NCBI GenBank assembly: GCA_009885805.1
Contig: VFJZ01000026.1
Span: 1-45,616 of the forward strand
Source of the DNA: Actinomycetota bacterium
Lineage (GTDB): Bacteria; Actinomycetota; Thermoleophilia; Gaiellales; F1-60-MAGs149
Direction of reading: 5' to 3'
DNA length: 45,616 nt
Shown here: positions 18,447 to 27,052 of the stretch, piece by piece
Layout of the letters: every line of letters begins with the position of its first letter
Numbering within the stretch: the stretch's first letter is position 1
Notes under the pieces: generated by a model
What the model saw: the letters and a program-made list of their open reading frames with translations, nothing else
Databases searched by the model: none
Told to the model about the DNA's origin: nothing
Made by a program: the position numbers and the translations under genes

Positions 18447-19631
18447 CTAACGCGGCGCCGCGACCTCGATCACCATCGCGTCGCCCTGACCGCCGCCGGA
18501 GCAGATCGCCGCGCAGCCGATTCCGCCACCGCTCCGACGGAGCTCGTGGATCAGCGTCACGATCAGGCGGGCGCCGGAGGCCCCGACCGGATGGCCGAGT
18601 GCGACCGCCCCGCCGTTCACGTTGACGCGATCTTCGGTCACGGCGAGCATCCGCGTCGCGTGGAGGGCGACCGAGGCGAACGCCTCGTTGATCTCCCAGC
18701 GGTCGACAGCGGCAGCGTCGATCCCGGCCTTCGCGAGCGCGATCTCGGCTGCCAGCGCCGGCACCCGTGCCAACCGGTCGGTGCGATCGGCGGTGTAGCC
18801 GACGGCGCGGATCACCGCGAGCGGCTCGATCCCGCGCCGCTCCGCCTCGGCCTCCGAGCAGACGACGACCGCCGCCGCGCCGTCGTTGACGCCCGGCGAG
18901 TTGCCTGCGGTATGCGTACCGCCGGCCACGAGGGGTTTCAGCGCGGCGAGCGCCTCGAGCGAGGTGTCACGGCGCGGCCCCTCGTCCGTGTCGACGACGA
19001 CCGCGCCCTTGCGACCGTCGATCGTGAGCGGCGCGATCTCCTCTGCAAACCAGCCCGCGTCGATCGCCGCGACCGCCCTGGCGTGCGAGCGCGCGGCCCA
19101 GGCATCGAGATCCGCGCGGTCGATCTCGAGCTCGGCGGCGACGGTCGTGGCCTGCTCGTACATCTGCCGGCCGGTCCAGGGGTCGCGCAGCCCATCCCAC
19201 AGCATCGCGTCGACGAGTGTCGCGTCGCCGAACCGGAAGCCCTTGCGCGCGCCGAGGGCGAGGTGGGGCGCGTTCGTCATCGACTCGGCGCCGCCGGCCA
19301 GGACGACCTCGTGGTCGCCGAGGCGGATCAGGCCGTCGGCGACGGCGATCGCCCGCAGTCCGGATGCGCAGACCTTGTTGACCGTCTCCGATCCGACCTC
19401 CGTGCGCAGACCGGCGGCGAGGGAGATCTGTCGCGACGGGATGTGGCCCTGGCCCGCCTGGATCACCGTGCCGAACGCGCAGTAGTCGATGTCCGCCGCC
19501 GGCACACCGGAGCGCTCGATGGCGGCGCGCGCCGCAACGGTGCCGAGCTCGACGGCGGAGAATGGGGCGAGGGCGCCGAGCAGTCGCGCGAACGGCGTCC
19601 GCGCGGCGCCGCAGATCACGGAGCGGGCCAC
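18447..19631 (-). CDS. Acetyl-CoA acetyltransferase (thiolase)
   Basis: Thiolase II of 394 residues, condensing or cleaving acyl-CoAs. The nucleophilic Cys is in 'VNKVCASGLRAI' (around 87); the other catalytic residues lie in 'NVNGGAVALGHPVGASGAR' (His) and 'CAAICSGGGQGDA' (Cys). 'INEAFASVAL' is also typical. ATG 19649 is in frame, but GTG 19631 gives the family N-terminus ('ARSVICGAARTPF') and is 8 nt from TAGAGT (19640-19645). The gene could serve fatty-acid breakdown, ketone or acetoacetyl-CoA metabolism. Confidence 0.9.
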   Translation of the reverse strand: MARSVICGAARTPFARLLGALAPFSAVELGTVAARAAIERSGVPAADIDYCAFGTVIQAGQGHIPSRQISLAAGLRTEVGSETVNKVCASGLRAIAVADGLIRLGDHEVVLAGGAESMTNAPHLALGARKGFRFGDATLVDAMLWDGLRDPWTGRQMYEQATTVAAELEIDRADLDAWAARSHARAVAAIDAGWFAEEIAPLTIDGRKGAVVVDTDEGPRRDTSLEALAALKPLVAGGTHTAGNSPGVNDGAAAVVVCSEAEAERRGIEPLAVIRAVGYTADRTDRLARVPALAAEIALAKAGIDAAAVDRWEINEAFASVALHATRMLAVTEDRVNVNGGAVALGHPVGASGARLIVTLIHELRRSGGGIGCAAICSGGGQGDAMVIEVAAPR

Positions 19632-19639
19632 GGCGAGCC

Positions 19640-19649
19640 ACTCTACCAT
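19640..19649. promoter_or_regulatory. Symmetric bidirectional -10 element (thiolase / RDD gene)
   Basis: ACTCTACCAT fits ANNNTANNNT. Plus strand: TACCAT (19644-19649), 6 nt before GTG 19656. Minus strand: TAGAGT (19640-19645), 8 nt before GTG 19631. The two -10 boxes share the central TA, so only one direction can be used at a time. Confidence 0.65.
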
Positions 19650-19655
19650 CCGACC

Positions 19656-20642
19656 GTGGTCGCAGATCCCCGACTCCGCGGGCGCCGGCTGGCGGCGACC
19701 GCGATCGACGTCGCGCTGGCCCTCGTCGGTGCGGTCACGATCGGTGCCGTCGCCGGCGAGCAGGCGGGCCTCGCCGTCGCGCTCGTCGCGCCTGCGCTGC
19801 TGACCGCGAGCTTCCTCGCGGTCGCCGGCACGACGCCCGGCAAGCGGGCTCTCGACCTCGCCGTCGTCGATCAGGCCGGGCGCACGGTGTCCGCCCGTCA
19901 GGCCCTGCGCCGTGAGCTTTGGGGTCGCCTCTGCCTCGAGCACGTGCTCCTCCTCGCCGGGGGAGCAGGAGCAATCGGGTACGGCGCCGGCCTCCGCGGT
20001 GACGGGCGCGCCTGGCACGACCGCGTTGCCGGCACGCGCGTGATCCGCCGCGGCGCTGCCCTGCCCGATCCCGGCCTCGGCCCGCGACACGTCGACGCAA
20101 CGACGAAGCCGGGCCCTGGCGGTCTCGAGTTCGCGGCATTCCTGCCGCGGGCCGGCGCGTACGCGATCGACTCGGCGCTGGTCGCGACGGTCTGGCTCCT
20201 CCTGTTCCTGCCGGCGGCGATCTTCACCGACCAGGTGAAGCTCGAGGGGGACGAGCCGGTGATCAGCGAAGGCTTCGCGTTCGTGGCGGTGGCGACGGTG
20301 CCGCTGCTGACGGCGCTGTACGCGATCGTCGCGCTGTACCTGCGCGAGACGACCGTCGGTAAGCACGCCGTCGGACTCGCCGTCCGTCGTGCCGATGGCT
20401 CGCGCCTGAGCCTCCGCGGCTGCGTGATGCGCGAACTCGTCGGCCGTCAACTCACCCTGGGCGTTGCCGGGGCGCTCATGACCGCCGGACTCGCGACCCT
20501 GGTCGACCTGCTCTTCCCGCTCTGGAACCGGGAGCGACGGTCGCTGCACGACATGATCGGCGGCAGCATCGTCGTCCGCGCGGCCGGCCGGCCGCGGCCG
20601 ACGCTTGACAGCGGGGCTCCGGCCGCTGACACTGACGCGTGA
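19656..20642 (+). CDS. RDD-family membrane protein with two RDD domains
   Basis: A 328-residue membrane protein made of two RDD-like halves. First half: 'LRGRRLAATAIDVALALVG', 'TTPGKRALDLAVVDQAG', 'ALRRELWGR', 'WHDRVAGTRVIRR'. Second half: 'LPRAGAYAIDSALVATVWLLL', 'TTVGKHAVGLAVRRADGS', 'CVMRELVGRQL', 'SLHDMIGGSIVV'. Each half has the family's R-x2-A-x2-D pattern and paired transmembrane helices. Function unknown; RDD proteins are proposed transporters. Its last codon region holds the trp promoter and its stop overlaps the trp leader ATG (TGATG). Confidence 0.8.
   Translation: MVADPRLRGRRLAATAIDVALALVGAVTIGAVAGEQAGLAVALVAPALLTASFLAVAGTTPGKRALDLAVVDQAGRTVSARQALRRELWGRLCLEHVLLLAGGAGAIGYGAGLRGDGRAWHDRVAGTRVIRRGAALPDPGLGPRHVDATTKPGPGGLEFAAFLPRAGAYAIDSALVATVWLLLFLPAAIFTDQVKLEGDEPVISEGFAFVAVATVPLLTALYAIVALYLRETTVGKHAVGLAVRRADGSRLSLRGCVMRELVGRQLTLGVAGALMTAGLATLVDLLFPLWNRERRSLHDMIGGSIVVRAAGRPRPTLDSGAPAADTDA
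20605..20633 (+). promoter_or_regulatory. Predicted trp operon promoter inside the end of the RDD gene
   Basis: Consensus TTGACA (20605-20610), 17-nt spacer, GACACT (20628-20633). The -10 is weak but keeps A2, A4 and T6. The start would fall about 7-9 nt downstream, at or next to ATG 20642 of the leader peptide, making the trp mRNA leaderless. Confidence 0.55.
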
Positions 20643-20704
20643 TGCACCGCTCCTCCCCCAGCACCTGGTCGTGGTCCGACGGGCGAGGCGACGGCTGCCG
20701 CTGA
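20642..20704 (+). CDS. trpL: trp leader peptide
   Basis: A 20-codon reading frame with two tryptophan codons separated by one Ser codon (W-S-W, TGG at 20666 and 20672). It is placed between a promoter and an intrinsic terminator in front of trpE. In a protein of 20 residues two Trp codons at this site strongly suggest ribosome-mediated attenuation: scarce Trp-tRNA stalls the ribosome and prevents terminator formation. The ATG overlaps the RDD stop by 1 nt and has no Shine-Dalgarno. GGGCGAG (20681-20687), inside the frame, can pair with CTCGCCC (20724-20730) next to the terminator. Confidence 0.75.
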   Translation: MHRSSPSTWSWSDGRGDGCR

Positions 20705-20730
20705 CCGGTTGCCGCATCGACGTCTCGCCC

Positions 20731-20756
20731 AGGCCTCCCCGGTGGAGGCCTTTTTT
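20731..20756 (+). terminator. trp attenuator terminator
   Basis: Perfect 8-bp stem AGGCCTCC / GGAGGCCT, loop CCGGT, followed by a run of six T. It is the strongest intrinsic terminator in the window and lies only 7 nt before trpE. The right arm contains GGAGG (20744-20748), the only Shine-Dalgarno-like sequence for trpE, so folding could also hide the ribosome site. Confidence 0.9.
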
Positions 20757-20762
20757 CTGCCC

Positions 20763-22138
<1,376 letters not shown>

Positions 22139-22142
<4 letters not shown>

Positions 22143-26974: not shown

Positions 26975-26978
26975 CTCG

Positions 26979-27052
26979 CTGTCGCAATGGTGCCGCACGC
27001 CTTTGCGACACGCCGCTGTCGCAATGGTGCCGCACGCCTTTGCGACACGCGG
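26979..27052. repeat. Palindromic repeat family A, two tandem 37-bp copies
   Basis: Two adjacent 37-bp units (26979-27015 and 27016-27052), identical except near the end (GCCG against GCGG). Each has outer arms TGTCGCAA / TTTGCGACA around GGTGCCGCACGCC. The outer arms are the same as at 13084 and 28505 but the centre differs. They lie between trpA and the adenosine deaminase-like gene, 8 nt before the -10 box of the latter. Confidence 0.85.

Follow-up and report, generated by a model that had tools for sequence, protein, structure and literature searches.

A putative leaderless trp attenuator upstream of trpE and its conservation in an order of largely uncultured organisms

The window, i.e. 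the whole stretch of 45,616 nucleotides that was analysed, very probably contains a tryptophan-sensing attenuator. Sequence comparisons suggest that the genes trpEGDCFBA are controlled by ribosome-mediated transcription attenuation from a leaderless leader ORF, trpL. Judged in the same way, the element is a real regulatory leader that is conserved across the order, in at least three families, and a similar leader stands before trpS in some of the members. Leaderless trp attenuation would thereby be extended to an order whose members are largely uncultured and probably actinobacterial.

The leader and its conservation

The features of the leader region lie on the forward strand. The leader is preceded by a gene for an RDD-family membrane protein (19530..20642, with an approximate start; Pfam RDD, E 5e-31). 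The stop codon of this gene (TGA, 20640-20642) overlaps the ATG at 20642-20644, and the resulting TGATG is present as the first-pass annotation had described it. This ATG opens trpL, a probably leaderless ORF of 20 codons (20642..20704, stop codon 20702-20704) that is seen in the sequence itself and matched by a model built from family f3 (see below), and that encodes the peptide MHRSSPSTWSWSDGRGDGCR. The putative sensing codons form a W-S-W motif at 20666..20674, i.e. TGG at 20666-20668 and again at 20672-20674. A terminator hairpin, AGGCCTCC-CCGGT-GGAGGCCT (20731..20751, arms at 20731-20738 and 20744-20751), lies 26 nt past the trpL stop; it shows compensatory changes in relatives and is the only terminator-like site within 20400-20900, where 0.1 would be expected. 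A run of six T, read from the sequence, follows on its 3' side (20751..20756). The hairpin, the T run and their distance from the stop codon agree with the earlier annotation, but the eight base pairs and the six T share one base: since the first T doubles as the last stem base, the terminator consists either of 8 bp and five T or of 7 bp and six T. The trpE gene (anthranilate synthase component I; Pfam Chorismate_bind, E 4e-88, and Anth_synt_I_N) begins with GTG and covers 20763..22142, and the ORFs after it were read as trpG, D, C, F, B and A.

The regions upstream of trpE were compared in those genomes of the order that have a usable trpE start (52 regions). The same arrangement, i.e. a promoter with a start codon mostly 6-10 nt past the -10, a Trp-rich mini-ORF, a covarying helix and a terminator, is found in 45 of them, or in 45 of 48 if family f4 is excluded; the leader was not found before trpE in four f4 regions or in the f3 members G035, G039 and G023. 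ATG is the start codon in 40 of these leaders and GTG in 5. Clustered W codons are present in all 45 (three in 33 leaders, two in 11 and four in one), and tryptophan accounts for 14.4% of the leader residues. This bears out the earlier reading of the W-S-W ORF as a trp attenuator, for which a comparison with relatives had been proposed; both the W codons and a covarying stem proved to be conserved.

A covariance model, R1, was derived from family f3 alone (28 leaders), and a search of 81 genomes of the order gave matches in 57. The 3.56-Mb genome of the window has a single match, at 20642-20758 (E 4.5e-8), which covers the full length of the model; with the filters off, the next best site in the window scores 11 bits versus 44. 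Since the arrangement recurs in the order, and since an independent model matches this site alone in the genome, the leader is more than a chance combination.

An RDD gene upstream of trpE is absent in all sampled relatives. A divergent thiolase gene adjoins the leader in most members of f1 and f2 and in several members of f3, and in the window it lies beyond RDD; the two-domain RDD-family gene between this thiolase and trpL is seen in the lineage of the window only. The TGATG overlap is therefore either a local accident or something that arose late, and for the same reason termination-reinitiation from RDD is applicable to this lineage only, where reinitiation at trpL on a readthrough transcript is possible. 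The relatives also bear on a simpler reading, in which the hairpin is an ordinary terminator of the RDD gene and the short ORF is there by chance. The terminator does sit just past the RDD stop codon, but relatives in the order have the leader with its W codons and its covarying helix, and none of them has RDD there; this reading, to which we give practically no probability, is already refuted by them.

Known regulators of other types were also sought. No Rfam family, including the trp leader and the T-box, scored above its gathering threshold in the window, and the weak Rfam matches around the leader were all far below the thresholds. The TRAP gene (PF02081) had no match in the genome, the B. 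subtilis control being positive, and TrpR was not found in this genome, which is about 95% complete. Its sole Trp_repressor-family protein (L228, G000:C65:11105-11353) is of the YerC/YecD type and falls below the TrpR cut-off.

Promoter, predicted RNA 5' end and trpE ribosome site

The promoter-like sequence TTGACA-N17-GACACT lies inside the end of the RDD gene, where the first-pass annotation had placed it. The -35 hexamer TTGACA (20605..20610), read from the sequence, corresponds to TTGAC[ACG] in most relatives, and the -10 hexamer GACACT (20628..20633) to CACCCT or TACNCT in the majority of them. The spacer is 17 nt, and ATG 20642 starts 8 nt past the end of the -10. GACACT is without the first T and is a poor match to the consensus, and a consensus promoter scan listed no promoters.

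In the order, a script found a promoter in 43 of the 45 leaders. The start codon lies 6, 7, 8, 9 or 10 nt past the -10 in 7, 18, 10, 6 and 2 of the 43, respectively; 41 of them have a spacer of 17-18 nt, and most have a -10 that fits [TC]A[CTG]NCT. We note that the search rules demanded an A at position 2 and a T at position 6 of the -10 as well as a spacer of 16-19 nt, and permitted start codons only 4-12 nt past the -10, so the tightness between promoter and start codon is partly built in; yet a nearby promoter is found in almost all leaders. If transcription starts at the end of the -10 plus 7 nt, the RNA 5' end in the window is predicted at 20640 +/- 2. A GTG at 20639 is likewise in frame with trpL. 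Judged by the promoter spacing, ATG 20642 is probably leaderless or nearly so, and the earlier assignment of the transcript start to this ATG holds to within that range, although not to the exact base.

Ahead of GTG 20763, only GGAGG at 20744-20748, within the right arm of the terminator, resembles a Shine-Dalgarno sequence, and it had been proposed as the trpE ribosome site, through which a single hairpin could act on both transcription and translation. It might even be argued that the hairpin (20731-20751) serves mainly to hide this site, i.e. that the control is translational. The distance from GGAGG to the GTG is 14 nt, however, which is long for a Shine-Dalgarno site, and the script recorded no site within 16 nt of the GTG. 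No conserved trpE ribosome site in the terminator arm was found among the relatives, in which trpE starts 6-49 nt past the hairpin and many have a separate site or none. Since the sites before trpE are so varied, or absent, dual control by the hairpin is not a conserved property, and the proposed ribosome site must be regarded as weak. As the T run 3' of the stem is moreover retained in the trpE leaders, we consider mainly translational control quite improbable.

Pairings in the leader and the proposed mechanism

Within trpL, segment A (GGGCGAGGCG, 20681..20690) is complementary to segment B (CGTCTCGCCC, 20721..20730). The pair GGGCGAG/CTCGCCC, annotated earlier as a helix competing with the terminator, forms part of this 10-bp helix (20681-20690 with 20721-20730). 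The helix was confirmed and its equivalent covaries in 28 relatives, but it abuts the terminator without sharing bases with it. In the 28 f3 leaders, 93.4% of the alignment cells in A:B and the terminator stem are paired, versus 87.7% in shuffles, and doubly changed cells number 31 versus 8.2 +/- 3.5, a value that none of 500 shuffles reached. Double changes affect 9 pairs, versus 3.9 in shuffles. If the partner is slid along the f3 alignment, the pairing drops to 33-56%.

A third segment, N, is the 5' part of trpL (20644..20658), which a fold of 20642-20707 predicts to pair with A before B is made. In a swap test, ten candidate pairings between N, A, B and the terminator arms (T5 and T3) were evaluated over all leaders, uncorrected for kinship but with the unrelated pairings as internal controls. 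Native partners were better than swapped ones for A:B, N:A and T5:T3 alone (p < 0.001), and no co-evolution was detected in all leaders for A:T5, B:T5, B:T3, A:T3, N:B, N:T5 or N:T3. N:A also beats controls in which the codons of N were shuffled (mean z -1.25, window z -1.55), and in one relative (L143) twelve consecutive N:A base pairs run from codon 2 onward (z -3.3). On fixed columns 76% of the N:A cells are paired, versus 49-61% when slid; an excess of covariation was not found on these columns, and the fold of 20642-20707 in the window was no better than shuffles for N:A. Taking energies and swaps together, a pairing of the first trpL codons with A is likely, not proven. The comparisons support the view that the conserved competitor of the A:B helix is the start of trpL and not the terminator.

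The leader could also be an attenuator of the classical overlapping kind, in which A pairs with the 5' arm of the terminator and A:B is a protector helix. The pairing in question would join GGG-C-GAGGC (20681-20689) to GCCTC-CCC (20733-20740), and its predicted duplex energy in the window, -16.5 kcal/mol, is near that of the terminator stem (-15.3 kcal/mol). The trp leaders of Streptomyces and Corynebacterium have been described with such shared triples (PMC1262725), and the leaderless leaders of family f31, inspected by eye, repeat a terminator-arm motif upstream. A:B is far stronger, however (-30.6 kcal/mol), and A:T5 lacks co-evolution whether all leaders (p 0.76), f3 (0.79) or f1 (0.15) are considered. 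We regard an A:T5 switch as unlikely and continue with N, A and B.

By analogy, the logic of the leader is that N, A and B act as segments 1, 2 and 3 of classical attenuation. Given the usual footprint, A would be accessible while a ribosome stands on the first W codon and masked once it is at the stop codon. The positions alone are in accordance with this: counted from its first base, the first W codon lies 10-20 nt before A (median 14; 15 in the window), and in the leaders of the order the median distance from the start of A to the stop codon is 22 nt, which mostly puts A within reach of a ribosome at the stop. In this scheme transcription would begin at ATG 20642 or no more than 1-3 nt from it, with a ribosome loading directly onto the 5' AUG. 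Until the ribosome displaces it, segment 1 would be paired to segment 2 (A, 20681-20698), as folding and co-evolution suggest. When charged Trp-tRNA is scarce, the ribosome would stall at the WSW codons and, given that the first of these is 15 nt before A, it would cover segment 1 and leave A free for B. A would then pair with B (20721-20730) and the terminator would be disfavoured. With ample tryptophan, the ribosome would run on to the stop codon at 20702 and cover A, so that A:B would be blocked and the terminator (20731-20756) would halt transcription before trpE. We infer both the direction of the regulation and the way in which A:B would antagonise the terminator.

The second of these points deserves comment. 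Across the leaders the distance between the end of B and the terminator stem is -2 to +4 nt, the overlap being limited by the search, and in the window the two are flush. The minimum-energy fold predicted for the window contains both A:B and the terminator, and it makes no difference to the predicted probability of the terminator whether the ribosome is placed at the first W or at the stop; simple thermodynamics therefore gives no switch here. Only genus g4 shows such an effect: there the outermost pairs of the terminator are lost to the helix, and the first of them has a probability of 0.12-0.53 with A free, versus 0.79-1.0. Such an overlap of bases between A:B and the terminator is seen in some relatives only, whereas the pair in the window is flush and compatible. 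A tentative suggestion, which we hold with considerable doubt, is that in this order a long, ribosome-gated A:B helix flush with the terminator hampers folding of the latter in the exit channel of the polymerase, or weakens its closing pairs, with no competition for bases; the 5' end of the mRNA, with the leaderless start codon in it, would then serve as segment 1. The steric effect in the exit channel is our own inference. If true, this would be attenuation by contact and not by strand exchange.

Known attenuators, wider distribution and neighbouring repeats

The leader resembles the E. coli trp attenuator in its general plan, with 1:2 and 2:3 pairings, a terminator and a leader peptide with Trp codons. 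In E. coli, trpL is preceded by an untranslated leader and a ribosome site, and the antiterminator and terminator have bases in common. In the window the helix abuts the terminator instead, and segment 1 would be the very start of the mRNA.

In the trp attenuator of S. meliloti, trpL or rnTrpL, the RNA begins with the ATG of the leader ORF, according to Bae and Crawford 1990 as quoted in PMC7298713; this attenuator is alphaproteobacterial and has a 14-aa peptide. Trans-acting roles have been reported for both the rnTrpL RNA and its peptide (PMC7298713). In S. lividans, trpL1 before trpE is leaderless and encodes 18 aa with WWW, and a second leaderless leader, trpL2, belongs to trpS and is without a U-rich stretch (PMC8079986). 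The likeness to the window consists in a leaderless Trp-rich peptide before trpE, hairpins and a U-rich stretch (PMC8079986), and the second leader before trpS finds its counterpart in relatives of the window, not in the window's own genome. The S. lividans trpE is monocistronic, however, and the sequences of its peptide and RNA differ from those in the window.

Trp attenuators have also been predicted in Corynebacterium and Streptomyces, and these actinobacterial leaders have UGG repeats, a GC-rich terminator and a U tract (PMC1262725), in which they resemble the present leader. Their gGCC-rGCy-GGCC triple (PMC1262725), however, has no equivalent co-evolving pairing in the order, and the streptomycete antiterminator and terminator are described as sharing complementary triples (PMC1262725). 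A leaderless ilvB leader has been reported in C. diphtheriae, and the title of a cited paper names leaderless cysteine-responsive ORFs in mycobacteria. A leaderless leader peptide for an amino acid is hence less unusual than the first-pass annotation supposed, given S. meliloti trpL, S. lividans trpL1 and the C. diphtheriae ilvB leader. In view of the two trp examples and of the predictions in Corynebacterium and Streptomyces, leaderless trp attenuation is already a known kind. The detail that is possibly distinctive is the flush antiterminator: a contact between helix and terminator that is conserved without a co-evolving overlap raises the question of how the switch blocks termination.

Beyond the order, short ORFs containing WW, WxW or three W were sought upstream of trpE, in 40 regions from the class and in another 40 from the phylum. 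Such an ORF is absent in 37 of the 40 regions of the class, and the other three all belong to family f7, where two have a different Trp-rich leader with a strong downstream hairpin and one ORF is probably unrelated. In the phylum, a WW leader that looks leaderless and has a terminator is present in two f31 genomes, and one f36 genome has a WWW ORF; two W-containing ORFs of f22 were not judged to be leaders. The f31 leaders before trpE (L198 in G239 and L208 in G208) have promoters of the form TTGACA-17-TATAAT or TATACT, and a repeated motif, noted by eye, suggests that their antiterminators are of the apparently classical overlapping kind.

A similar leaderless-looking, Trp-rich leader with an A:B-type helix was observed before trpS in five genomes (L259-L263 in G053, G048, G044, G033 and G023). 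R1 has a second match before a trpS-like gene in the first four and its sole match before such a gene in G023. The downstream gene in G053 is a tryptophan--tRNA ligase (TIGR00233, E 5e-95), and the other four were read by eye. The terminator is kept in G048 and G023, and others are without a T run, which might mean another mode of control. A trpS leader was not found in the genome of the window itself.

At the other end of the trp genes, between trpA and an adenosine-deaminase gene, two tandem units of 37 nt with a TGTCGCAA...TTGCGACA dyad occupy 26977-27050. A 31-nt core of the unit occurs 50 times in the genome at no more than 3 mismatches (control 0), and its copies often form pairs at a distance of 37 nt, their orientation being either direct or opposed. 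The 37-nt unit is a REP/BIME-like dispersed palindrome.
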